64,000 nt of DNA from Temnopleurus reevesii (Eukaryota > Echinodermata > Echinoidea > Temnopleuroida > Temnopleuridae). The first letter of the stretch is position 1; each line of letters starts with the position of its first letter. Both the position numbers and the translations under genes were made by a program. The notes under the pieces are model-generated. The model made no database searches, was not told where the DNA came from, and saw only the letters and a list, made by a program, of their open reading frames with translations. The stretch is taken from the NCBI GenBank assembly GCA_036244855.1, contig BQKZ01001490.1, forward strand, positions 8,090 to 72,089, written 5' to 3'. Below, piece after piece: positions 2,625 through 64,000 of the stretch.

Positions 2625-2809
2625 CTGGTAATCCCGTATCAAAACATTTCAGAACACATTCTGAGTCATTCAGTTTGTCTCATGTGACATATCAAAACAT
2701 TTTAGAATAAACACAACAAACCGAACTAAATCTCCTGGACTAGCCGACCTTATTCATGTAATCCCTTATATTGCACTATTAGGACAGTAATGACATGGTG
2801 ATATGACAT

Positions 2810-3455
2810 GGGAGCGTCGTGGTGTAGTGGTTCGGACTCTCGCCTCTTAAAGCCCATGTACAGTTTTGGTAAAAGCGAATATTTTTATTGCCAAATTTTG
2901 TCTTCAAATCTATCTAAAATGAAACATGATATCATGTACATGCTGTACAAAAGATTGTGCGAAAAATGAACAAGTTTTGGAAAAGTTATAACCTAAAATG
3001 TGCAAAATATTTCAGCGTCGTGTCCCCCGACGCTAATTGAATATTTTCTTTCTTGATAAAGGACAACTTCTCATGCCCAGAATTGGATGAAAATTTCAGA
3101 ATGCATTCTTTGTGTATTCCTTTTTAGCATGCTTTAATCAAATCTTTGAAATAACTTTATATATGCCCGATAAGAAGCAAAATATTGTTATAACCAAGAG
3201 AGGGCGCTAAATACGATTTAACGGTCAAATTCAAATTTTCAAAAGTATTAGCTCGTAGAAAAATATGCTATGGTCTTAAAATGTGTATAAAAATTACATG
3301 TCATGGTAAATATCCCAAAAATTCACATTTCTTCATCTTTACCAAAACTATACTTGGGCTTTAACTAGAGGGTCGGTGGTTCGATTCTCTCCCAGGGCGT
3401 TAATTTCCTTCAGCAAGAAATTTACCTATAGTGTGCTGCACTCAACCCAGGTGAG
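2810..3455 (+). mobile_element. tRNA-derived SINE, interrupted by MITE (copy 1, cut at 3455)
   Basis: The head gggagcgtcgtggtgtagtgg with tggtgtagtgg resembles a polymerase III A box, and ggtggttcgattctctc (3373-3389) a B box. The two halves are separated by the 510-bp MITE. The right part resembles the reverse complement of the SINEs at 17138 and 35053 (ttccttcagcaagaaattta, cactcaacccaggtgag). Confidence 0.8.
2851..3360 (+). mobile_element. MITE with TTAA duplication inside a SINE (copy 1)
   Basis: A 510-bp non-coding element with terminal inverted repeats AGCCCATGTACAGTTTTGG on the left and CCAAAACTATACTTGGGCT on the right, flanked by TTAA on both sides (2847-2850, 3361-3364). Removing it restores the SINE sequence cgcctc-TTAA-ctagagggtcg. 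TTAA duplication is typical of piggyBac-related MITEs; because the ends are palindromic with the target, a TA duplication cannot be excluded. Confidence 0.8.
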
Positions 3456-3456
3456 N

Positions 3457-4287
3457 CTGGTAATCCCGTATCAAAACATTTCAGAACACATTCTGAGTCA
3501 TTCAGTTTGTCTCATGTGACATATCAAAACATTTTAGAATAAACACAACAAACCGAACTAAATCTCCTGGACTAGCCGACCTTATTCATGTAATCCCTTA
3601 TATTGCACTATTAGGACAGTAATGACATGGTGATATGACATGGGAGCGTCGTGGTGTAGTGGTTCGGACTCTCGCCTCTTAAAGCCCATGTACAGTTTTG
3701 GTAAAAGCGAATATTTTTATTGCCAAATTTTGTCTTCAAATCTATCTAAAATGAAACATGATATCATGTACATGCTGTACAAAAGATTGTGCGAAAAATG
3801 AACAAGTTTTGGAAAAGTTATAACCTAAAATGTGCAAAATATTTCAGCGTCGTGTCCCCCGACGCTAATTGAATATTTTCTTTCTTGATAAAGGACAACT
3901 TCTCATGCCCAGAATTGGATGAAAATTTCAGAATGCATTCTTTGTGTATTCCTTTTTAGCATGCTTTAATCAAATCTTTGAAATAACTTTATATATGCCC
4001 GATAAGAAGCAAAATATTGTTATAACCAAGAGAGGGCGCTAAATACGATTTAACGGTCAAATTCAAATTTTCAAAAGTATTAGCTCGTAGAAAAATATGC
4101 TATGGTCTTAAAATGTGTATAAAAATTACATGTCATGGTAAATATCCCAAAAATTCACATTTCTTCATCTTTACCAAAACTATACTTGGGCTTTAACTAG
4201 AGGGTCGGTGGTTCGATTCTCTCCCAGGGCGTTAATTTCCTTCAGCAAGAAATTTACCTATAGTGTGCTGCACTCAACCCAGGTGAG
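3457..4287 (+). repeat. 831-bp direct repeat, copy 2
   Basis: Second copy of the segment described at 2625. After 4287 the interrupted SINE continues (gtgaatgggtaccggcagg), so this is the copy connected to the natural right flank. Confidence 0.95.
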
Positions 4288-4390
4288 GTGAATGGGTACC
4301 GGCAGGAATTTATTCTTCTAAATGCAGAAGCGCCTATTTGGCAGCTATGCTATGGCCGGTTAATAATATTAGATAATTTGTCTCGCGCCT
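3642..4390 (+). mobile_element. tRNA-derived SINE, interrupted by MITE (copy 2)
   Basis: Same element in the second 831-bp copy. It continues past 4287 through gtgaatgggtaccggcagg and decays before the expected GCGC tail; the end near 4390 is approximate. Confidence 0.7.
3683..4192 (+). mobile_element. MITE with TTAA duplication inside a SINE (copy 2)
   Basis: Identical to the element at 2851-3360 because it lies in the second copy of the 831-bp repeat. It is flanked by the same TTAA sites. Confidence 0.8.
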
Positions 4391-7928: not shown

Positions 7929-9867
7929 GGGACGTCCTCATTCACAAACTTCACGTCCCTGGTCGGGGGACACAAATCGTAAATTTCATGGCCAAATGGC
8001 CTGTTGTTTAGTGGACTCTAGGGTTTCCATATACCAACCTCTTTCACCTTAGACCATATATGGTTTTCATGTGTGGCTGTCGGCATTGTTTTTAGCAATT
8101 CCTGTTGAATATGCGTACTTGTAGCAAGTTTATCTCGTCACGCAAGTGTGGATGTTTCTGGAAACTCAATTGCATGTGTATAGTATTGTAGTAAGCGCGA
8201 GTTATTTGTTTTTAGCTTATGGGCAAGTCTACACTCTAAAAACTAAAATGTTACAGTAAGAAATAATCAATATTTTACCCATGTAGGATGTTGTTGGATA
8301 GAGCATGTTTGAAGAGTAAATCTACCATTTCTGTTTCCTCTCCACCAACATTTTAATATGTTGATTTAAAAAGAAACTATTATATTTGGAAACTGCCTCT
8401 TCTCTATTTAAGTGATGAAATGTTTGAAGAGTGTCTCTCAAAGTTATTAAGTATGATGTTTCTGAAAATGTTTAAAAAAACATGATATCTTTAACATACA
8501 TGTATATTTGAAATATACTTGAACCGTCAACAAAGCTAAATGACCAAATTATGATAATAATTATGATAATAATTAAAATAATTAACAATAATTATTAAAT
8601 AATGAATGTCATTTAAAATTTACACTTGTGACGAAGTGTGATGAGTTAAGCTTAAGTTCTAATGCCATAATTGTGACAATGTTTTTTTTTCGAATGAGGT
8701 ACCATTGTTGGAGGTGCCAATAAATACCTAGTTGATTTTCTAGGTTGATTTCCTTTTACTTTATCCTTGTGTATACTTCTCTTTTTCGGTGCATATGAAT
8801 GAAATGAGTTCTGGGAGGGTGCTTTGAATTGCTCTTGCTTCTTAAAGTAGTTCCATGAAGTGACATGTATAAACTTCTCGTTCACCTCCAGAGGTCATGA
8901 CGGCGCACATGACCCAGTGCGGGTATTATGTAGTAATGTTAAAACAAACATTGAGATTGCAAGAGATTTATGGATATATATATGATGTTTAAGGACTCCA
9001 TACGAGCATACCAGCTCTCGAGTTATTTATTTTTCAAACTTTACGGTAACGAGGGGAGTGGGAATTCCTTTCTAAAACCGGATAATGTGATGATGACGTC
9101 ATTTGTCACGTGATCTCCATCTTCTTTTACTTCTATTCGCACAATGCACATACTCGTTATGGCGGAAAGTGGCATAATCGCGGTATACATGATCCAATGC
9201 CCTCGTAGGATTATAAATCTTTTTAAGGTATTCCTACAGTTAGCGGTTGACAATTGTACAGGCGGGCCGGGGATTACTAACAGCACTTAACAGTCTAATA
9301 CCGGGCATATTTTCACTAGTCCCATAGATTCATTTTCACCGGGTGGAAACTATCATGGTCCTCAGGTTTTTATTTGAAGGCTTGCTTTACGATTTAGCTC
9401 CTTCCTTACGGCATTCAATATAGGTCTAAGGTTAGAATCCTCGCTTTGTCTCTCTCGTTCCATTTCTCTCTATCTCTTTATCGCCCTGTCGTTTGTGTAT
9501 TTAGTGTTACTTTCCTTTTTCCGAAACCAAAATCGACTAAAATGCACTTTGCCCGTAGGCTCACTACTAATAATGAAAATACATTTCTGTGTCATATCAC
9601 TTAGATTTTTTGACGAGAATCATTCTAAATTATTTCCTTTGCAACAATGTCTGTTAGAGGTCAGATACATTGCAATGTGAGAAAGGCAGAAATACATCCT
9701 CAGGAAAACCATATCCAAAAATGTTTTCTTGTGGGATATTCCATTAGGAAACGGACCCAGTAATGGATATTTGCCTCGCATCTATGATTGTTTATTATAT
9801 ATACAAATATACCTTTCAAGATGCATCTTAATATTCATTTTCATTGAAAATTAGTGGGTTTGTCTAA
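7929..9867. other. No recognised feature
   Basis: AT-rich non-coding sequence including an ATAATAATT tract (8549-8600). The frames here are short and unstructured. The intervals 5336-6389 and 6610-7360 are similar. Confidence 0.6.
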
Positions 9868-10026
9868 GGGGGTGTTGCTCAAAGGTTGCAATTGATGGGT
9901 ACGCGCCAATCAAAATCATTGTTTCATGCGCCTCCTGTTACATGCGCACACCACGCGCGAATGGAAATGCGCGTTACAATTTGCAAAGTTGCAGTTGGTT
10001 TGCAATTGATTTTGAGTAACACCCCA
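9868..10026 (+). mobile_element. MITE, GGGTGTTGCTCAAA family
   Basis: gggggtgttgctcaaaggtt and the right end gattttgagtaacacccc are inverted repeats, flanked by TAA on both sides. The interior gcgccaatcaaaatcattg is shared with copies at 23385, 28840 and 63849. Confidence 0.8.
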
Positions 10027-10164
10027 TAAGATGCTGTTTGATCAAATTACCTATCTTTTTGTTTGCATTATTAAACGTTTGTTTGTCCTCGTTTAAAAGA
10101 AAAGCTCGCACAAGAGTAATCGTTTCACTGTCCATAGACTTTTGGGTTATTATGTCCAACTTTA

Positions 10165-22925: not shown

Positions 22926-23384
22926 GGTGCATTTCACCTCCGCATCTAATGTGTAGACGGTGTTACCATCTGTCTTTATGAATTATACATTTTCAACAGC
23001 ATTTTCAAGGCCGTAGGGTGTATTTTTAGATTTCCTTTTGCGGTGTGCCGTCTTTAATCGTTTCTCATCTAAATTCTCCTTCGAGAATCGAGAAACCCCC
23101 CGAAGCAGATCTCTTGGAGATTGCTATCTACAGATTATTGAATTCGGGCATCAGTTGGAAGGAAAAAAATAATAACTGAATCAGTCCATGTCTTTCCAAG
23201 TAATGTATCAGAGAAAATGCTAAGTGATAAGATTTGTTTGCAGTTAGAATGAGACATGTTGTAGGGCATTCACATCAGTAGACTGATCCCATGCTGCTCC
23301 CAAACTGAATTGTCTTAAATTAGAAATGTGAACTATTATTGAATAATTTTTTTAGTCAGCGACATTTTACAGTTATAAGATTAA

Positions 23385-23560
23385 GGGGGTGTTGCTCAAA
23401 ATCAACTGCAAATCAACTGCAATTTAGCAACTTGCAACACGCACTTTCATTCGCGCACGGTATGCGCATTTAACAAGACGCGCATGAAACAATGATTTTG
23501 ATTGGCGCGTTCCAATCAACTGCAACTTGCGATCAATTGCAACTTTTGAACAACACTCCC
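23385..23560 (+). mobile_element. MITE, GGGTGTTGCTCAAA family
   Basis: The terminal gggggtgttgctcaaaatca and ttttgaacaacactccc are inverted repeats, flanked by TAA. It lies just upstream of the microexon array. Confidence 0.85.
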
Positions 23561-23880
23561 TAAGAAAACTAACCTTCAAACCATGTTCACAGCCTTGCTC
23601 AATAGCGGCTTTTAACAGGCTTTTCACTGTGATTTAACAAATACAATACAAAACAAAACATAAAATTTTAAACGGAAAAATAATGACAACTTTGTTGTTG
23701 CTTTTTGAGAGCTGGGTATGATCCGTCTGTTGATTTGACTGTCCTATTAACATGACCAATTCTTATTCCAAATTAAATTTGAATATTTGAATATCTAATC
23801 ATCTTTCAACGTTTATGTTTTCATGACAGGTCGGCATCGTCTCTCTAACCTTCCGTCGTGTCTTCTCATCTTTCGGTCAG

Positions 23881-23900
23881 GACGACATTGATGACTTTCT
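23881..23900 (+). CDS. Candidate 20-nt microexon, copy 1 of 7
   Basis: GACGACATTGATGACTTTCT is preceded by a pyrimidine-rich acceptor (tcttctcatctttcggtcag) and followed by the consensus donor gtaagtt. It codes DDIDDF plus CT, the first two bases of a Leu codon completed by the first G of the exon at 31260. Its assignment to the guanylate cyclase rests on strand, position and phase, not on homology of so short a peptide. Confidence 0.5.
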
Positions 23901-24016
23901 GTAAGTTAACCAATCAGTATCAATGTTTCATCCATGCATTGCTTTGATTAGTAACCATGAACCAATCAGAGTACTTGTTTAAATATTTAAATCATATTTT
24001 CTTATCTTTCGGTCAG

Positions 24017-24036
24017 GACGACATTGATGACTTTTT
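24017..24036 (+). CDS. Candidate microexon, copy 2 of 7
   Basis: Same acceptor (cttatctttcggtcag) and donor gtaagtt. One base differs from copy 1 (ends TTTTT rather than TTTCT). With the following G the codon is TTG instead of CTG, so the change is silent (Leu). Spacing from copy 1 is 136 bp. Confidence 0.5.
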
Positions 24037-24182
24037 GTAAGTTGATTCACTCAGTATCAATGTTTCATGTACATATTGCTTTGGTTCATGAACATTAACC
24101 AATCAGATATGTTGTTTTAATAATCATGAAATTGCCAATTCCTGTTCTGCTTGAAAGTGATAGTTTCTCATCTTTCGGTCAG

Positions 24183-24202
24183 GACGACGTTGATGACTTT
24201 CT
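24183..24202 (+). CDS. Candidate microexon, copy 3 of 7 (Ile to Val)
   Basis: Same acceptor and donor. One base differs, ATT to GTT, so the peptide is DDVDDF-L, a conservative change. Spacing from copy 2 is 166 bp. Confidence 0.5.
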
Positions 24203-24347
24203 GTAAGTTGATCAACCAATCAGTATCAATGTTTCATGTACATATTGCTTTGGTTCATCAACATTAACCAATCAGATTAGTTGTTTAATGTTGAAGTCAT
24301 CAATTCTCGTTCTGCTTGGAAATGACAGTTTCTCACCTTTCGGTCAG

Positions 24348-24367
24348 GACGACATTGATGACTTTCT
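24348..24367 (+). CDS. Candidate microexon, copy 4 of 7
   Basis: The 20 bases are identical to copy 1. The acceptor tract reads tctcacctttcggtcag and the donor gtaagttg. Spacing from copy 3 is 165 bp. Confidence 0.5.
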
Positions 24368-24516
24368 GTAAGTTGATTAACCAATCAGTATCAATGTTTC
24401 ATGTACATATTGCTTTTATTCGTCAACATTAACCAATCAGATATGTTGTTTTAATAATCATGAAATTGCCAATTCCTGTTCTGCTTGAAAGTGATAGTTT
24501 CTTATCTTTCGGTCAG

Positions 24517-24536
24517 GACGACATTGATGACTTTCT
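24517..24536 (+). CDS. Candidate microexon, copy 5 of 7
   Basis: The 20 bases are identical to copy 1, with acceptor cttatctttcggtcag and donor gtaagttg. Spacing from copy 4 is 169 bp. Confidence 0.5.
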
Positions 24537-24656
24537 GTAAGTTGATTAACCAATCAGTATCAATGTTTCATGCATGTATTGCTTTGATTAGTAACCATGA
24601 ACCAATCAGAGTAATTGTTTAAATATCTAAATGATAGTTTCTCATCTTTCGGTCAG

Positions 24657-24676
24657 GACGACATTGATGACTTTCT
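24657..24676 (+). CDS. Candidate microexon, copy 6 of 7
   Basis: The 20 bases are identical to copy 1, with acceptor ctcatctttcggtcag and donor gtaagtta. Spacing from copy 5 is 140 bp. The two unit lengths in the array (136-140 and 165-169 bp) reflect two versions of the intronic spacer. Confidence 0.5.
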
Positions 24677-24825
24677 GTAAGTTAATTAACCAATCAGTGT
24701 CAATGTTGTATGCATATATTGCTTTGATTATTCACCATGAGCCAATCAGAGCAGTTGTTTTAATAAGAATGAATCTGTCGATTCTCGTTTTGTTTGGAAA
24801 AAATACTTTCTGAGCGTTCTGTCAG

Positions 24826-24848
24826 AACAACATTTCCGATGAATTTCT
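24826..24848 (+). CDS. Diverged 23-nt microexon, copy 7 of 7
   Basis: After tgagcgttctgtcag this copy reads 23 bases coding NNISDEF plus CT. It is one codon longer than the others and keeps the exit phase. The donor is weaker (gtatta). It may be an older copy with its own sequence or a decayed one. Confidence 0.35.
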
Positions 24849-25746
24849 GTATTAAAGTTCGTTGACCAATCAGCAATAATATTTCTTACTCATCAATTTG
24901 TACCAAACCCATCTCGATCCAATAATATTTTAGAATTTATCAAATTTCGTTTGGATTGAAAATTACACCTGCTACTCAGTTGACAATAGCTCTGGTCCTC
25001 ATTTGTGTTCTAGAGCCAATCAAAATACATCTTTTACTTGACATATTCGATGACTTTAAATAAGTTTTGTCTTCTTGTCGTAGTCAACAATGTTTCTGTT
25101 CTACCAAATTTCGTCATCTTACAAAAAGGCAAGTTTGAGAATTATATTACTTATTGCACCGCTATTGATTTTTTTCTTTAAATCTTTCTTTTCAAATCTT
25201 ATTCTGAATCACAATAGTCATTTACCTCACTATGAAAATTTGATGAGCTTGCGTTTATTCATTGCGATTACAGAAAAGAGATCAGGTACATTCTGATTGG
25301 TTAAAACTTTGAAATGGTCGCATATCTGTCGCCATCTTATACATGTCTCAAACACTTGTGTTTTATGCTTTAACGGCCTCGTGATAGCGACCCCCAGGGA
25401 ATAACGGTTGAACTCACTGATAGAGTATTCTGATCTGACCATTATTCAAATAAAATGCAGTGATCATGAAGCTTAAATATAGATGTAATAGAAGCCAAGC
25501 CTTTATCCCGCCATCTTATTGATTTCATCTGGGGCAGAAGAAATTCGCTGGATCATTCCCCTCGCACTTTGCACCGTATCATTCAGTCGCCTTAACCCAT
25601 TCGGTACTCAAATATAATCTTAGAAGACTCTTAAAAGTATCTATAGACTTGACCCGTATAACAACCTAGAAAAGCTCACTTAAAGTTCGTAACTTACCAT
25701 CAACAGTCACGTGGGAACATTTTAGGTTATTTATAGAGGTATTTAA

Positions 25747-26404: not shown

Positions 26405-27165
26405 ACTTGGAATATCAAATCAAGATTAAATTCACTAATCATGAATTGAGCTTCTTTAATTTTTAAGTACCTGCAAACTAAGCTCTCAAATAATCGGAAA
26501 ATGATTAAACATAGGTGTTCTTTCCAGGAAAACCTATTAGTTACAATATCAAATCAAGATTAGATTCACTAATCGCGAATTGAGCTTCTTTCATTTTTAA
26601 ATACTTGCAAACTAAGCTCTGAAATTACCGGTAAAATCATTACACATAGTCAGGTATTATTTCGAGAAAGAAGGTAACAATCACAATACCAATGCGAATT
26701 TGAAAATTTAGTTAAAAGTTTATAACTTCGTCCCAGGATAAAATATTCACACTGAAATATCAAATCAAGATTAAATTCACTAATCATGAATTGAGCTTCT
26801 TCAATTTTTAAGTACCTGCAAACCAAGCTCTTAAATTATTGGGAAAATTGTTAAACATCAGGCATTATTTCGAGAAAGAAGGTAGCAATCAAAATACCAA
26901 TGCGAATTAGAAAATTCAGTTGAAAGTTTACAACTTCGTCCAAAGAGGAAATATTCACACTTGGAATATCAAATCAACATTAAATTCACTAATCGCGATT
27001 TGAGCTTCTTTAATTCTTAAATGCCTGCAAACCAAGCTCTCAAGGAATCGGTAAAATGATTAAACATATGTGTCAGATATTATGTCGAAAGGAACCTAAT
27101 AGTCACGATACAAAATTCAGTGGAAAGTTTATAACTTAACAAAAAGAGGCATCATATTTACGAGT
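26405..27165 (+). repeat. Tandem satellite, about 210-bp unit, four copies
   Basis: aatatcaaatcaagattaaa begins units at 26411, 26545, 26756 and 26965 (spacing 134, 211, 209). Shared parts are ttgagcttcttt-aattttta and acctgcaaac-aagctct. The second unit starts early, so the first is truncated. No coding sense. Confidence 0.88.
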
Positions 27166-27423: not shown

Positions 27424-28839
27424 CATGAAAATGCTTGTTGACGATGATTTTTACATCCTACGTATACGGTAGCTTTCATTTACCTACCATCTTGGTTTTA
27501 AAATGTAGCACAATTCGCCATTTCCGCCACAAATGCTAGCGATTGAATTTCCTGTAAATCATGTTATCGACTAAAATACTACTTTTTATTTTTCTGCAAA
27601 AGTACATCTCCTCTTACGAGACGTTTTCATCTGTATGATCCAATAGACAAAGTAATTTCATTTGGATTACTTCGTTTGCAATCGTCCTTATAAATTTAGC
27701 ATGAAGATATCGAACTAGAGAAAAAGAGCATGCCAATGATATAGTGGCTTTTGTTGTTTTTTCTCTTCATTTTGATAACTAAAATGTATTCCATTCAACA
27801 TATCGGTGTAGTAAATATGCATAATTGATAAAATTGATTATCATGCTTGAATAACAATAATTATCTGGCAGGGGATCCTAAATATATTTTCGATGAGTGA
27901 TTGAAGTCGGTTATTAGCCCTGCTCACATTTAAAGACACGCTTCGTATTTCTTAAATCGTCTGCTATTATAATACTACTCTTGAAGTTTTCTTATATATA
28001 GCAAATTATGATAGTACGTAAGTCATATGACTTCAGATTGATTATAAAGAGGAATACAAATTTCCACAACGTAGATTACCAAATGACAAGTCATCTACTT
28101 TTAAGATTTTGCAAGCCAATAACCAAACCACAGTGATTTTACTTTTAGTAAGAAAACTTCCCACATCTTCGAAATGATAATGCCAGCAAAATCTTAAAGA
28201 TTTTTCAGAAGCGAATTACAGTATACGTTGGTAAATACGCTGAGAGGTAAACTAATCAGCGATTTGACTCAAAACTTAGTTAAAAAAAACAATATAATTT
28301 TACTACATCAATCACCAGGGAGAGGAATGATTTGCATCATTTAATCTCTATTGTTCCACACACCATGCCAGACGATATATGTTACCATGGCAACTAAATC
28401 GAAGACATGAACTCAGCCCACATGTGGCAAATCGAACACAGATTTCATATTGGGGTGAAGCTTTGTACGATTGGCAATGAAAATATGACAATCGATTAAT
28501 GTCCATGAATGTTGATACGATGGAAGCCATCTTGGCATCAATATGATAGTTTAAAAATCCTAATTTCATTTTTGTTTTAGAAGTCATTTTAGGAGAGATG
28601 TATGTGAATTTATAAAGTCAATTTATTTCACCGACCATTTATTTTAGTATTTTAATGGAATGAAAATTTACACCCATCATAACATAAACCAATATTGGAA
28701 TCAGAGTCTATGTAAATTATGATTTATTTTATTAGGTATTTATTTTCTTTACTTATATTTCCCTACCGTTATTTATCACTTTAATGGGGGTGAAAATATA
28801 TACTCATCATGCTAATAAAAGATATTGAAAAAGTCTATA
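27424..28839. other. No recognised feature
   Basis: AT-rich sequence within the candidate intron; frames are short and unrecognised. Confidence 0.6.
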
Positions 28840-29016
28840 GGGAGTGTTGTTCAAAATCAACTGCAAATCAACTGCAACTTTCCAAACTGTAATGCGCATT
28901 TTCATTCGCGCACGGCATGCGCATTTAACAAGACGTGCATGAAACAATGATTCTGATTGGCGCATTGCGATCAACTGCAACTTGCGATCAATTGCAAGTT
29001 TTGAGCAACACCCCCT
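28840..29016 (+). mobile_element. MITE, GGGTGTTGCTCAAA family
   Basis: agggagtgttgttcaaaatc and ttttgagcaacaccccct are inverted repeats with TAT-like flanks. Interior subrepeats are aatcaactgcaactt and ttcattcgcgcacgg. Confidence 0.85.
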
Positions 29017-29480
29017 ATGTCTCTGAATTGAATCCAAACTAATGGCACTATAGTAGGTATTCATTCATTCATTCACTTATTTTACCAATCAGTATTTAAC
29101 ACTTTGATGAGACGAAAATGTACACCTATCAGAATCATGCAATTTGTACCAAATAGAAACTTGGGTTAATTACCTGAATTAAAATCGACATATATACACA
29201 TGTGTCTGAAATGGCTCCCATGAAATTTTTCTCAATGCATATTGACGTATTTGTCCTATCTTTTTTCAGACCTATGTAGATTTCGTCGTAGATATCTATT
29301 TGGGTAGAAAAACACACGGGTCCTGAGGTTTGCTTCTAATGTTATTCAAACAAAGTAAGAAAAACAATCCTAGAGCTTGAAACGTTGAGAAAAATTAGGG
29401 TTTTGATTACTGAAAGAGTAAAAAAAAATCAATTTCTGTGAAGGGAAGAATCAATGCTGGGGTATCCCACGTGCTTTCTG

Positions 29481-30039: not shown

Positions 30040-31259
30040 TGATTTTATATACATGTATATTTCTATTGCAGGGATAAATAGGGAGTTGACGATACGGTTC
30101 TTCTACAATCACTCACAAACCATTCATAAAACAATTTAACCACTCCCTGAGTGATCCAAATACGGGACAAAAATTCCAAATTATGCCATTTATTAAAGGG
30201 CTGAATGAGTATTCATGTATGTTTACCATGTTTACATTCCAGGGATAACGGTGAAATGGACTGCACGTTTTCGATCGAATCAAACTTTTACGATCATTCA
30301 CAAACCATTCATAAAATCATTTAAGATATTTGAGTGTCCCAAATATGGAACAAAAAGATTCAAATTGCATAATTCCAATGATTTTTTAAATATATGTTTA
30401 TCTTTCAGGGATAATGAGGTATTAGACGGCACGTTTTCAATCGAATCCTTATCAAACTTTTATAATGATTTACAAAGCATTCATATAGAACTATTTAAGC
30501 TTCCGACGTGTTCCACACATTGGAAAATGGTTTCAGTTTACATCATTCTTTTTTTCTAAGAGTATAATGATTTTATATATGTCTCTATTGCAGGGAGAAT
30601 TAGGGATTAGACGATACGGTTCTTATACGATCATTCACAAACCATTCATAAACCCATTTAAGCTTCCTGAATGTTCCAGATATGGGACCAAAGATTCATA
30701 TTGCATAATTTCAATGATTTTTTATATTATCTTTCAGGGATGATACTGAGGGATTAGACGGCACTTTTTCGATCGAATCATTTTCAAACTTTTACGATCA
30801 TTCAGAAACCATTCATAGACCCATTCAAAGACCCAAGCTTCCTGAATGTTCCACATATGGGACAAAAGATTCATATTGCATAAATTCGATGATTTTTATA
30901 TTATCTTCCAGGAATAATTTGGAATTACACGGCACTTTTGCGATAGAATCATTATCAAACTTTTACGATCATTCACAAACCATTCACGGAATATTTAAAC
31001 TTCTCGAGCGTTCCATATATTTGACAAAAGATTCTAATTTGCACATTTTTGTTAAGAGCGTGATGATTTTATATATTTTTCTATTGCAGGGATAACGATG
31101 GACCAGACGGCACGTTTTCAGACCGAATCATTATCAAACTTTTACGATTATTCACAAAATATTCAGCTGCTTGAGTGTTCCATAATTATTGGACAAAATT
31201 CTAATTTGCACCTTCTTTTTCCTAAAAGTGTAATGGTTTTATATATGTTTCTATTGCAG
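30040..31259 (+). repeat. Tandem array of seven partial, decaying copies of exon H
   Basis: Seven units of 144-185 bp precede the intact exon. Exon-like parts start at 30072, 30243, 30409, 30594, 30738, 30912 and 31090, each directly after a pyrimidine tract and CAG. Each repeats roughly the first 65 nt of exon H (DTGGLDRTFSIDSLSNFYDDS) and then switches from gattca-ggaccc to gattca-caaacc, so the second half of the exon and its donor are missing. In the exon H phase, copies 1 and 4 have early stops. Copy 2 lacks two codons (LS). Copies 3, 5 and 6 stay open (for example LDGTFSIESLSNFY). Copy 7 has a +1 shift after TTTTCA. The units share intronic tracts such as gattttatatatgtttctattgcag. They are best read as relics of exon duplication that still carry acceptor sites. 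Confidence 0.85.
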
Positions 31260-31387
31260 GGATACCGGGGGATTAGACCGCACGTTTTCGATCGATTCAT
31301 TATCAAACTTTTACGATGATTCAGGACCCAACCCGTGTCTAGAGGATCTCTTAATACACGTCACTACCAAAGGTGCCAAGATTTTAG
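31260..31387 (+). CDS. GUCY1A-like: Soluble guanylate cyclase alpha-like, exon H (start of HNOB)
   Basis: This 128-nt internal exon follows a polypyrimidine tract ending ctattgcag and ends at a consensus donor gtaagt (31388). It enters with one base of a split codon, then reads 42 codons starting DTGGLDRTFSIDSL and ending TTKGAKIL, then one base G. Joined to 35900 the split codon is GGT and the frame continues GLEYTVF. The stretch CLEDLLIHVTTKGAKIL aligns with the beginning of the HNOB (heme-NO-binding) helical region of guanylate cyclase alpha subunits. The acidic, Ser-rich part before it would lie in the N-terminal extension. Of the three possible entry phases only this one is open: phase-0 entry meets TGA and the other meets TAG. 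It is the last and only complete member of a tandem array of eight exon-like copies (30072-31387). The family call is firm through the neighbouring exons; the N-terminal half has no recognised homology by itself. Confidence 0.82.
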
Positions 31388-35899: not shown

Positions 35900-36072
35900 G
35901 TTTAGAGTACACTGTATTTATGGAGAGGTTTGGTGAGGAGTATTTCTGTCTGTGTTTCGAGCAATATGGCCAGTTCCTGCAAGCGTTAGGAGGCTCTCTC
36001 GTGGAATTCTATAGTAATATCGACGGCCTTCAACAGCACATCTCATCGTTGAAGCTCACCAGTAATCTAAGG
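35900..36072 (+). CDS. GUCY1A-like: Soluble guanylate cyclase alpha-like, HNOB exon
   Basis: A 173-nt exon with a long pyrimidine tract and catatccag acceptor before it, and donor gtaatg after it. It supplies two bases to the split Gly codon and 57 codons, LEYTVFMERFGEEYFCLCFE through KLTSNLR. The GEE-F-C-E core and the following GGSLVEF motif match the alpha-subunit HNOB consensus (GEE-F-IC-E and GG-L-DF) better than the beta pattern. In beta1 the helix NLDALHDHL carries His105, the proximal heme ligand; here the same place reads NIDGLQQHI, so Gln replaces His105. Alpha subunits do not bind heme and dimerise with a heme-carrying beta subunit to form the nitric-oxide-activated enzyme that makes cGMP from GTP in the cytosol. 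The exon ends in phase 0. Confidence 0.93.
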
Positions 36073-39272: not shown

Positions 39273-39830
39273 CCACCATCATTTCGCTGCTCCACAAGGG
39301 ACAATGAACGACACATTCTACTTCACATGTACACGGAGAGCACATGCATGTCGCAAAGCATGGCGGGACAGATCAAAATGGCGTCCATTCTTTTGTTCAA
39401 TTCTTTCGTCGACGTCCAAATGGGGGAGCGCAATGGGAACCATTCAGTGTACATAATCACACCCCTCTTGGACGAGGCCCACCCGAACTGTGACCACGAT
39501 AGACTCGGACACCCTACCCAGTCAATTTCAACTTTATCCAACAGGAGAAAAGACGCCAAACTTTCTGTGGATACCTTTAGTTCGGCCTTTCCCTTCCATA
39601 TCATGTTCAACAGGCAACTGTTGATCAAACAACTTGGAGATACTATTGTGAGAATGATGGCAACCGCTCTCGCTGCCGATGGACTCAATTTAAACTCTTA
39701 CTTCAAGGTGTTGTCGCCACCGCTGGAAAAGGTTACGTTTGAGAGCATACTGGCGAACATTAATTTGTGCTATGTCATCGCAACCAGCTGTGTTCTGTCT
39801 GGACTATCGAGTTCAGAAAGCAAGTATTCG
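39273..39830 (+). CDS. GUCY1A-like: Soluble guanylate cyclase alpha-like, HNOB end plus HNOBA (PAS-like) exon
   Basis: A 558-nt (186-codon) exon, phase 0 at both ends, between acceptor ttcgtatttcag and donor gtaagtgaca. It opens with PPSFRCSTRDNERHILLHMY, the C-terminal strand region of HNOB; beta-type YxSxR is replaced by MYTES, so the heme propionate contacts are missing. A variable linker follows (about residues 60-95 of the exon). Then comes the HNOBA core: FPFHIMFNRQLLIKQLGDTI, closely resembling alpha-subunit FPFHFMFD, and YFKVLSPPLEKVTFESILAN, resembling EYFEILTPKI-QTFSGI. The HNOBA domain mediates subunit dimerisation and signal relay to the cyclase domain. Reading through the donor would add only 12 residues before a stop at 39864, which would give a protein lacking the coiled coil and cyclase domains. 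Downstream exons were not found in the window. Confidence 0.95.
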
Positions 39831-46744: not shown

Positions 46745-47265
46745 TTCAGTGGTTCTGAATTCATATATATATTCATATATTCAGTTCATAGTACAACCAT
46801 ATCGTCACTACTTTGGACATTAATATTTTTTATATGTAGTTCATATCCGCATTTGATAATATATTCATATATTTGCAAGATAGTCTATTCATATATTCAG
46901 TAAATAGTACAACCATATCTTCACAATATACTATATTCATAACTTCAGTTGATTAAGTATATTAATATCTTCACAATATACTATATTCATAACTTCAGTT
47001 GATAAAGTATATTCATATCTTCACAATATACTATATTCATAACTTCAGTTGATAAAGTATAGCCATATCTTCACAATATAATATATTCATAACTTCAGTT
47101 GATAAAGTATATTCATATCTTTACGATATAATAACCATATCTTCACTAGATATATCTTCACTAGATAGTGTATTCATATCTTTAGTTGATAATGAATTTA
47201 TATCGTGAGTAGATGGTATATTCATAACTTCAGTAGATATATTTAAGGCAGAAATATTCAATTCA
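46745..47265 (+). repeat. Diverged minisatellite, about 50-bp higher-order unit
   Basis: attcatatcttcacaatata plus ctatattcataacttcagtt plus gataaagtat repeats with a 50-bp period (46905-47130). Each half is a relative of the 24-bp unit further right. Confidence 0.85.
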
Positions 47266-47279
47266 GAACATTATTTTTA

Positions 47280-47358
47280 AGTAACCGAGCGCCATGAGCG
47301 CCCAGCTGTGGCGGAGACCGGCGCTATACAAGAGGCCATCATCATCATCGTCATAATA
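47280..47358 (+). mobile_element. SINE-like 3' tail fragment within minisatellite region
   Basis: gagcgccatgagcgcccagc and ggcgctatacaagaggcc followed by (ATC)n resemble a SINE tail. It separates the diverged and the regular parts of the 24-bp minisatellite. Confidence 0.5.
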
Positions 47359-47369
47359 TATATTCATAT

Positions 47370-47700
47370 CTTTAATATGTAGCGTATTCATATCTTCTAT
47401 AGATAATTTATTCATATATTCATTGGATTGGAAAGTATATATATTTTCACATGATAATATATTCACATCTTCACTAGATAATATATTCACATCTTCACTA
47501 GATAATATATTCATATCTTCACTAGATAATATATTCATATCTTCACTAGATAATATATTCACATCTTCACTAGATAGTTTACTCATATCTTCACTAGATA
47601 ATATGTTCACATCTTCACTAGATAGTTTACTCATATCTTCACTAGATAATATGTTCACATCTTCACTAGATAGTATATTCATATCTTCACTAGATAATAT
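47370..47700 (+). repeat. 24-bp minisatellite, left block
   Basis: Unit tcttcactagataatatatt-ca(t/c)a, about a dozen copies. A period of 24 keeps all frames open, giving SSLDNIF(I/T) on the plus strand and SSEDMNIL on the minus strand. The 203-codon minus frame is therefore a repeat artefact. Confidence 0.95.
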
Positions 47701-48457
47701 GAAGAGCTGACATGCAAAAGGCCCTAAATCCATTTTTGGTCGATGGGCATGTTTTAGCATGTCTAGATAGAGATTGGTCATGCGCATCAAACTGACTATA
47801 CTCTTACTCGAAAGAAGTACATACACACCATGCACAATTGAAATGATCCAGTGAATCATTGAAACAAACGCCATATTTTTGTACTTCTTGTAATTTCATA
47901 ATAAGTGTTTCACGAAAGTTGAATTATGTGTTGACATTAAAAAAAACACGTAAATGATTTCAAAAGCAAAATGAAACACTTCTCTCCATTCAGTTGCGTG
48001 TAATATCAATGCAGCCATCGGAGACAGTTGTGTACTTGCAAGGGACACAATATTTACTCCATTTTAGGTTGGTGGTATATTAGGCAGAAGTAATAACACT
48101 CAATCATGCAAATTTTACGAATAGAAAAACATTAGGAAGGTATGGGATGGCGAAAATAGTTTTTGTACATGATAAACATGATGAACCGCTCTGGACTTTT
48201 CATGCTAAAGGGCCTAAATCCAAGTTTTCATGCAAAAGGCCCTAAATCCTAAAAAAAAAAATTGTAAAATAATCATATAAAATTCAAATCCTATGAAGGA
48301 TTTTTTTAATTGCCATTTTTCTTACCTGCATCAAGGACTCTAAAACATGTTACAACAATCTATTTCAATGGATGATTAGAATTATGTGAAATAGAAAATA
48401 TTGATTTACTAAGAATCAGCCAAAGTGGATTTAGGGCCTTTTGCATGTTAGCTCTTC
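47701..48457 (+). mobile_element. 757-bp TIR element inserted in the 24-bp minisatellite
   Basis: The ends gaagagctgacatgcaaaag-gccctaaatcca and tggatttagggcc-ttttgcatgttagctcttc are inverted repeats of about 32 bp with one mismatch. Removing the element and one AT restores a normal 24-bp unit, so the target duplication is AT. Two extra internal copies of catg-aa(a)gg(g)cctaaatcc lie at 48200-48250. No transposase frame; non-autonomous. Confidence 0.88.
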
Positions 48458-56049: not shown

Positions 56050-56790
56050 TAGAAAGCATGATATCTATTCGGGGGCCAGACAACTCGGTCTTAAGTTACT
56101 CTATTTCTATGCAATCACACGTCTTATGGAAATGCAGGTTCATAAAATTGGATCTCCCTGTTCTTGAAATTTGTCTATCCATATATTTGAATACAACTCT
56201 TTTTGCTCTATCTGCTAGGTTTGTCCTTGTGTCTTTAAAGGAGCCACAGTTATTAAAGATTAATCCCAAATATGGTGCCTGTTTAACAATTTCTATATTT
56301 TTATCATTTATCTTGAAATTTTGGTCTTTTAACATTTTGCCGTTTTTATTACATACTACTATCTTGGTCTTGTCTATATTGACTTCTAACAACCATTTGT
56401 TACAATACACATCGAGTCTATTTAGTAAAGTTTGCATCCCCTCTTTCGATTTTGATACCAGTACAATATCATCTGCATACATTAAACAGTTCACTAATTT
56501 TCCATTCAACTCAACTGGATTTGTGTCATTGGTTCCCAATTCATCTGGTAAATCGTTTAGATACAGGTTGAAAAGAGTGGGGCTGATTGTACAACCTTGT
56601 TTTACACCTATATTGGTTTTAAACGATTGTGTTATCCCTTCGTTTAGTTTTATACTCAGTTTAAGTCGCTCGTACATGTTTGTAATTATTTCATAAAAAT
56701 GTCCTCCGATACCATTTTTAAGTAATTAAAAAAAATTGATAAAGAATCCTTCACTTCTGAATACTGTTAATACCAAGTGGAACAAAGTTT
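56050..56790 (-). pseudogene. Degenerate non-LTR retrotransposon reverse transcriptase fragment
   Basis: On the minus strand 56677-56096 codes 193 open residues of a LINE-type reverse transcriptase. Motifs in order are GVKQGCTISPTLFNLYLNDL (residues 24-43), the catalytic YADD (67-70, DNA 56479-56468), NKWLLEVNIDKTKIVVC (93-109) and YLGL (136-139). The frame extends upstream as IGGHFYEIITN before the first Met, so that Met is not the true start. Further upstream a one-base shift near 56720 and a stop near 56750 interrupt it, and the region that should hold the first catalytic Asp (FVDF-KAFDS type) reads FVPLGINSIQK, so it is dead. Endonuclease and 5' parts are absent. The open reading on the + strand here is its antisense shadow. 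Clade (CR1/L2/Jockey-like) is not resolved by eye. Confidence 0.85.
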
Positions 56791-61937: not shown

Positions 61938-64000
61938 AACGAGACCATTGTATATAAAATTTAAAATGCATAGAATTCAATGAAATAGTAATGCAACCAT
62001 GTAGTGAAAGTGCCTTTAAGCAAATAGTTCAATAATTTCTTGAAGACAGGAGTTGATTATGAGTTATAATAACTTGCGGTAAATTGATGTAATACGACAT
62101 TGAATAAGTAGTCGCAGCTGCATAGAAGTGTTTGCAAGTATGAAAAAGAAACTGCCTCCGGATAGAACGTTTGATGTTTCCGAAAATATCCATGATTATT
62201 CACACATATCATTCGTAATCATAAAGTCTGTAAATTAATTTATAAAGAAACACAAAAAAAATTACTACCTTATTGAATGTCACACAACTTCTTGATGACG
62301 AGTGTCTACACAAAACAATTTGCATGTAATCTTTATCAACTACCTTGCTAGCCCGATTGGAAATTTATGGAAATTTGGAAATTTATTCATTAAAAATTCA
62401 TCGACATATGCTGTCAAAATTATGTTTATATTACATTCTAATCATATACATTATATTATGTTAAGCAAGTTATACAAAATGTTACACTAACAAAGTTATA
62501 TAAAAAGTAAAAAAAAAAAAAAAAGAAGAATAAACGTGATGAAACAAATGTATGAAGGAATACAGACACAACAGGAAAAAAAATAAATTTTACATGAGTC
62601 CTAAGTTAGGATAGATATGAAGTGAACACTGATGAGCAAATTCTTATTTGTATGTGTGTTACGTTGCTAGTTTCTAATTTGGTATGTTAATGATCAGACC
62701 CTCTCCTAGCAATCTCGGCAGTTTCACGGTTAAATAGTAAAAGTGGTATTTTTGACGAAAACTTCACTTGCCAATATTGCCATAAAATCAAGCTTTGCCT
62801 ATTTTAAGGCGTTAAACAAAATTTTTTTTGTGTGGAAAACTTTGTCCATTCATGCGCAAAAACTGTCATGATTATGTGAAAAGAATTCCAAATATTGGCA
62901 TTTAAGCAAAATTTACATTACACTGTTCATGAGAACCTTCATATTCATAATTATTGGCATATAATGCGCACAGAACTATCCTTGTGACTTTTAGAAAGGA
63001 AAGTTTATGTTATGTATATGTTCACTCGCGCATAAAATACAGGATTATGCTCATTTTTTTTAATAATAATAATTTCATGTCAATGTTATTACCAGATACG
63101 CCCCCTATACAAAGTTATACTAATTTTAATTATGGTAGAGGTAACACATTTCTCTGTGCTTTCTGATCTTTAAAACGATAATAGAAAGTTTTCAATCAAG
63201 TAATACAACGCAACAAATATTGTTAATTCCATACACAGGGCGTCCTCCAAATCGGAGCCAACAATTGCAGCTTAGACAAAAATTCTAGACTATCCATGAT
63301 CAAGAGTCGCCCCATAAATAATTTTCTCTGTTAGAAGTCAGTGAAAACTGTCTGTGATCAGACAGGAGTAAACAGCATACCGAAGTTGTTGTGAAGTATA
63401 TTTCTGAAAGAATATGGAGGTCGAATACTAAATGAAACATCCAAACTTATTGTTATCATCAATAATTTTTTGTAATTTTAGAAATTTTAAGCACCTGTTT
63501 TTGTGACGTCATGCTTTGCACTTTTTTTGAGAATTCATGTATATGTTCCAGAAAAGTCCCTGCCTGTGTTTTAAGTTGGCAATAGTGTTATGCTTCTGAA
63601 ATTCATTGAATCTACATTCATGTGGATAAAAGAAAGAATTTAGCAGGTATTCCTGTTTAGGAACAACGGGAACCCCGGAAAGAGGGGTGGACAGGAGGAA
63701 AGATGGCTACAGGTCATTCACTTCTGCCCGGTCCAACTCGGTACAGCTTTGTGACATTGCATTGCAGCTAAGAAGATGAGACATTGGGGTGTTTCTGCAC
63801 ACTTTACGATCATTTGCTTATCAGTCTCAAATTGATATACTCATATTTTCATTCGCGGACGGTCTGCGATCTTTAAAAAACCGCTCATGAAATAATGATT
63901 TTGATTGGCGCGTGCTGAATAACTGCAACTTTGTGTCATTTTAGTGTACTATCAGGAAATTGATGTAAAACAACGGATTGCTGATCTTTTGTACCTGTAT
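61938..64000. other. No recognised feature to the window end
   Basis: AT-rich with poly-A at 62508-62524. A GC-richer patch at 63660-63740 includes aaagatggctacaggtc but no supported exon. Confidence 0.55.
63849..63935 (+). mobile_element. Partial MITE, GGGTGTTGCTCAAA family
   Basis: ttcattcgcggacggtctgc and aataatgattttgattggcg match the family interior; the termini are lost. Confidence 0.6.

Follow-up and report, generated by a model that had tools for sequence, protein, structure and literature searches.

Facing tandem arrays of partial exon duplicates, probably without dedicated function, in one intron of a soluble guanylate cyclase gene from a sea urchin

Does a row of short, splice-like repeats in a sea urchin gene represent a cluster of microexons, or the residue of duplication? 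The repeats lie in a 64,000-nt stretch of Temnopleurus reevesii DNA (the window, to which all positions refer), where a first-pass annotation had described seven microexon-like cassettes in a guanylate cyclase gene on the same strand. Microexons are exons of approximately 3–27 nt and are often neuronal. Among the titles and opening lines of abstracts listed by searches of an open-access library, none describes a guanylate cyclase gene with microexons arrayed in tandem.

The repeat itself has the composition described. A 20-nt core occurs six times, at 23881, 24017, 24183, 24348, 24517 and 24657, each time with GTAAGT directly after it; a 23-nt relative occupies 24826-24848 and precedes the weaker donor GTATTA (3/9 consensus matches). 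Only two substitutions separate the six cores: four are identical, and two carry one change each, either the last C to T, which is silent (CTG or TTG across the junction with exon H), or ATT to GTT, which replaces Ile with Val. The copies are in direct orientation with a spacing of 136–169 nt, and copies 2–7 sit within the 7.4-kb intron between exons G and H.

23881-23900, + strand: copy 1, the 3' end of exon G
24017..24036, + strand: copy 2, partial duplicate of the exon G end, donor GTAAGT
24183..24202, + strand: copy 3, partial duplicate of the exon G end, ATT to GTT
24348..24367, + strand: copy 4, partial duplicate of the exon G end
24517..24536, + strand: copy 5, partial duplicate of the exon G end
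24657..24676, + strand: copy 6, partial duplicate of the exon G end
24826..24848, + strand: copy 7, diverged 23-nt duplicate reading NNISDEF, then GTATTA

Apart from the six cores, no ungapped 20-mer within four mismatches of the core was found on either strand of the window, and the repeat is therefore not a product of chance. The exact 27-mer formed by the core and GTAAGTT occurs four times in the 558-Mb assembly (10,433 contigs), always on this contig, so that at exact 27-mer stringency the repeat is not the genome-wide satellite that the annotation had named as grounds for abandoning its reading. Two units of 169 and 170 nt, compared with 30 other stretches (146,046 unmasked bases), gave no match at an E value of 0.01.

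The exons around the array were assigned by comparison with related proteins.

23830..23900, + strand: exon G, 71 nt, peptide VGIVSLTFRRVFSSFGQDDIDDFL, aligning uninterrupted to the Lytechinus and Strongylocentrotus proteins
Splice sites of exon G, + strand: acceptor CATGACAG up to 23829; donor GTAAGT
31260..31387, + strand: exon H, 128 nt, intact
35900..36072, + strand: exon I, 173 nt, aligning with the HNOB region of orthologues
39273..39830, + strand: exon J, 558 nt, matching the start of HNOBA and the end of HNOB

A conceptual protein of exons G–L was built from 23830-23900, 31260-31387, 35900-36072 and 39273-39830 together with 64164-64649 and 73702-73845, the last two lying past the window end and the end of the 64164-64649 exon being counted by hand. 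In full-length comparison with soluble guanylate cyclase alpha-2-like proteins, its identity to that of Lytechinus variegatus and to that of Strongylocentrotus purpuratus is 92%, and its identity to that of Diadema antillarum is 75%. Exon J matches HNOBA above the Pfam cut-off (E=6.4e-13), and its HNOB match (E=0.00099, 19.5 bits) falls under the cut-off of 25.5. Cyclase motifs are present in the gene, and the best solved chains related to the protein are alpha-1 subunits. The presence of a same-strand guanylate cyclase gene is thus confirmed by the HNOBA match and the identity to the urchin proteins, and the gene, judged by its predicted protein, encodes an alpha subunit of soluble guanylate cyclase, of the alpha-2-like kind. 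On the 82,995-base contig, the last approximately 105 residues of the Lytechinus protein had no match. No convincing match for the first exon, which would encode the part of the Lytechinus protein before VGIV, was found on this 83-kb contig, and the upstream junction of exon G therefore rests on homology. The assembly contains 20 HNOBA matches, two of them on the contig of the array and the others on contigs C3583, C8830, C87, C1644 and more, which implies further soluble-cyclase-type loci.

The orthologous proteins decide the nature of copy 1. Those of L. variegatus and S. purpuratus read VGIVSLTFRRVFSTFG(Q/H)DDIIDDFL and then DNEGLD with no break, and the matching 71 nt of the window form one open frame that runs up to the GTAAGT after copy 1; copy 1 therefore closes a 71-nt exon as its 3' end. 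This comparison sets the orthologous proteins against the frame of the window. Those proteins run unbroken across the core and the 17 residues that precede it, which in the window share a single open frame, so that copy 1 does not qualify as a separate, very short exon. The seven microexon cassettes accordingly resolve into the end of exon G and six partial duplicates of it. As for the conserved acceptor tract that had been ascribed to the cassettes, in copy 1 the tract is coding sequence. The splice-like borders of the copies are real, and the proposed exit phase also stands, since the core joins exon H as CT/G GAT.

By consensus comparison, usable AG and GT flanks are present. The donors of copies 2–6 have six of nine consensus matches, equal to that of exon G, and their upstream tracts contain 12–13 pyrimidines in 16 positions, as against 11/16 at the acceptor of exon G itself. 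Inclusion would disrupt the frame: any one of copies 2–7 placed between exons G and H shifts it and leads to a stop after 11–12 codons (6/6), and stops likewise followed in those combinations of two and of three copies that were tried. Replacement would have almost no effect. Exchanging the core of exon G for another 20-nt copy would preserve the peptide with four of the five extra cores, because three equal that of exon G and one has the silent change; the fifth has the Ile to Val change, and only copy 7 is distinct. The 20-nt cores thus do not replace one another with a change of peptide, as mutually exclusive exons would.

Each unit of the array is made up of approximately the last 40 nt of exon G (20 nt and the core), the donor, and approximately 100–130 nt of intron. 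In copies 2–6 homology to exon G begins only about 20 nt upstream of the core, and the remainder of the exon is absent. In copy 7 the 3-nt difference leaves the exit phase intact, and its three extra bases coincide with the extra Ile of Lytechinus and Strongylocentrotus (DDIIDDFL), which Diadema lacks; it may have separated before exon G lost the Ile codon, or it may have gained the bases by an independent insertion.

A facing array, absent from the earlier annotation, occupies the opposite end of the same intron.

30072..31259, + strand: exon H-end array; by alignment, seven incomplete duplicates of the exon H 5' end, with acceptors
30072, 30243, 30409, 30594, 30738, 30912 and 31090, + strand: starts of the H copies

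The copies at 30072 and 30594 have a stop as their fourth codon and large gaps in the exon part, that at 31090 is frame-shifted, and that at 30243 has an in-frame deletion of 6 nt; three of the seven are open. The broken copies indicate that partial exon duplicates in this intron are, at least in some cases, not being kept up as coding sequence. The AG is kept in all seven, while 9 of 15 acceptor columns vary, and one H unit has a match to the donor patterns scanned (GTATGT at 30217). The units of both arrays consist of a truncated exon end and adjoining intron in direct orientation, and in each array one unit is continuous with a complete conserved exon: copy 1 with exon G, and the last unit with exon H. 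Local identity is 80–94% between G units and 73–85% between H units, and this greater divergence suggests that the H series is probably the older. A third tandem array, with a 208-base unit, lies in the G–H intron at 26545-27040; inspection of its reading frames by eye revealed no exon sequence.

The cores had also been said to be more conserved than the spacers, and this holds weakly to moderately. Variable columns number 2/20 in the core, 1/13 just upstream, 0/6 in the donor, 26/32 further upstream and 19/62 in the gap-free downstream spacer. Set against the downstream spacer, the core by itself gives a one-sided Fisher p of 0.055 and the 39-nt block (13+20+6) one of 0.005 (3/39 versus 19/62), the latter with borders set post hoc and copies that are not independent. 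Among copies 2–4, block and spacer diverge about equally (2/39 and 3–5/62). Copies 1, 5 and 6 do not differ from one another in the block (0/39) and differ at 2–9/62 spacer positions, and between these and copies 2–4 the differences amount to at most 1–2/39 in the block and approximately 7–14/62 in the spacer. The lower variation of the block may reflect either constraint or conversion from the working exon.

Arrays of this kind are not confined to the cyclase gene and are common in this genome. Tandem Repeats Finder, applied with a period of at least 100 to 113,988 unmasked bases in 10-kb stretches, one from each of 20 other contigs, found seven arrays covering 3,430 bases. The same count in the 64,000 bases of the window gave six arrays, two of them segments of the exon H array, with a coverage of 2,773 bases; the window is somewhat denser in such arrays than the sample. 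One sampled array belongs to a glutathione reductase gene.

Stretch L035 (contig C1550, 20001-30000), 2997-3857: glutathione reductase array, five units of approximately 176 nt

Its unit 1 is the end of a glutathione reductase coding exon, and units 2–5, which lie past the stop, repeat the last 16 codons, the stop and the 3' flank. Of these later units, two still encode TVAIHPTASEELVTLR and TVAIHSTTSKELVMMR, a third lacks 13 nt and the remaining one is interrupted by a stop. Exon-end duplicates therefore arise in this genome where no codons can be added. The window also holds a direct duplication with an 832-base offset at approximately 2802-4288 (repeated pieces of reading frame and paired tblastn matches), a 210-codon open frame on the minus strand at 47263-47895 with many LSSED-type octapeptide repeats, which overlaps a 24-base tandem repeat, and a 209-codon open frame on the minus strand at 56096-56725, which by eye resembles a fragment of a LINE-type reverse transcriptase.

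Pairing between the intron parts of the array and other stretches of the window was scored, and the best partners of copy 4 fall in a dispersed repeat.

23384..23562, + strand: dispersed repeat, 179 bp, MITE-like by eye, upstream of exon G
28839..29017, + strand: dispersed repeat, 179 bp, within the G–H intron, an inner part of it antisense to the conserved intron stretch of the G units
~9867-10028 (minus strand) and 63845-63931 (partial): further copies of the 179-bp repeat in the window

Scored against 6,276 stretches of the window, the post-donor intron stretch of copy 4 has its best antisense partners at 28921 and 23481, both within copies of the 179-bp repeat. This repeat also occurs in stretches L027, L030, L037 and L035, two copies flanking the tandem array of L035. 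Of 110 random segments drawn, 15 were removed for N or low complexity; among the 95 used, 10 equalled or bettered the score of copy 4 (−34.8) within 5 kb, and two did so for the intron part of copy 5 (−40.0), which pairs with a site in this same intron. A 12-nt perfect complement at 25293 was found as well; when the sequence separating the two arrays was simulated, 23 of 200 runs attained a length of 12. Inverted pairing could take place around exon G. We do not count these pairings as evidence for a docking mechanism, although the score of copy 5 leans towards one.

Four functional readings can be set against these data. The copies might act as poison or decoy microexons, with copies 2–6 occasionally included or their donors competing with that of exon G, and the resulting frame shift would lower the amount of the cyclase alpha subunit as a form of dosage control. 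The good splice signals of copies 2–6, the early stop that follows each single inclusion, the reduced variation of the 39-nt block and the AG retained at all seven H-copy acceptors agree with such a role; against it stand the like divergence of block and spacer among copies 2–4, the breakage of three of the seven H copies and the existence of a like array past a stop codon, where copies add no codons. We regard it as unlikely. A wider version, likewise improbable, would make the two facing arrays a splice-decoy device, in which donors repeated where the intron begins and acceptors repeated where it ends, helped by pairing with repeat elements to either side, tune the yield of productive cyclase alpha mRNA by way of poison microexons.

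A choice among mutually exclusive microexons, perhaps made in the manner of Dscam through RNA pairings that compete for a docking site, would draw on the phase that fits exon H, on the partners of copy 4 at 28921 in the same intron and at 23481 a short way upstream of exon G, and on the copy 5 score that only 2/95 random segments equal within 5 kb. Yet with coding parts so nearly identical the choice would alter almost nothing, the orthologous proteins run unbroken through the core and the residues before it, the partners belong to a dispersed repeat with 10/95 random segments equalling the −34.8 of copy 4, and the 12-nt complement at 25293 is matched in 23/200 simulations; of the readings considered, this is the one to which we give least credence. 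Very improbable, too, is occasional use of a second acceptor within exon G, at 23880 (TTTCGGTCAG/GAC), by which copy 1 alone would become a 20-nt exon and 17 residues would be dropped in frame. The 51 nt removed are a multiple of three and the tract has 13 pyrimidines in 16 positions, but the dropped residues are present in all three urchin orthologues retrieved, and one of them, R10 of the exon G stretch, is invariant in all 10 aligned sequences, which include that of the window, chimpanzee and amphioxus.

The array is very probably a series of tandem duplicates of a segment straddling the 3' boundary of exon G, with no dedicated function, and harmless duplication debris is its most likely nature. 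The anatomy, the homology, the phase, the breakage of some H copies and the like arrays elsewhere in the genome are observed. The duplicated segment would have comprised approximately 40 nt of exon G, the GTAAGT donor and approximately 100–130 nt of intron. Because it starts inside the exon, the first unit would remain the working exon end and the later units would land in the intron, where they would be tolerated. A separate series of duplications at the end of exon H would have acted likewise from the other side of the intron. Normal transcripts would then splice the 71-nt exon G straight to the 128-nt exon H, copies 2–7 would leave with the intron, and neither array would have a dedicated function. 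Several observations count against duplication debris: the splice signals of copies 2–6 seem as good as those in use, the 39-nt block is less variable and is identical in copies 1, 5 and 6, copy 7 keeps its exit phase as all seven H copies keep their AG, and the intron pairing of copy 5 is matched by only 2/95 random segments.

The copies resemble microexons in their length and flanking AG and GT, and differ from them in that copy 1 belongs to a 71-nt exon and the others are candidates by sequence only; duplication across exon borders can evidently mimic a microexon cluster in raw sequence. Should copies ever be spliced in, the locus would be a natural experiment on the origin of new exons and decoy splice sites. 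Mutually exclusive exons stem from tandem exon duplication (PMC9741552; PMC6071210), and the urchin units share with them the tandem copying of exon and adjoining intron and a common exit phase. In contrast to such exons, which are homologous, distinct and interchangeable, the urchin units copy only approximately the last 40 nt and scarcely differ in their coding parts. For Drosophila, too, tandem duplication has been put forward as an origin of novel introns (PMC2891723), and the potato RdRp gene is described as having gained a new, spliced intron by a tandem genomic duplication across an intron–exon boundary (PMC4974935). As in the potato case, the duplicate spans the boundary and brings exon sequence together with splice signals into a region that becomes intronic; unlike that single duplication with its new spliced intron, the urchin locus has many copies within an existing intron, recognised at the DNA level. 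The locus fits this known kind of event, tandem duplication crossing an exon–intron boundary (PMC4974935), and supplies an animal example in which one intron has grown in this way at both ends.
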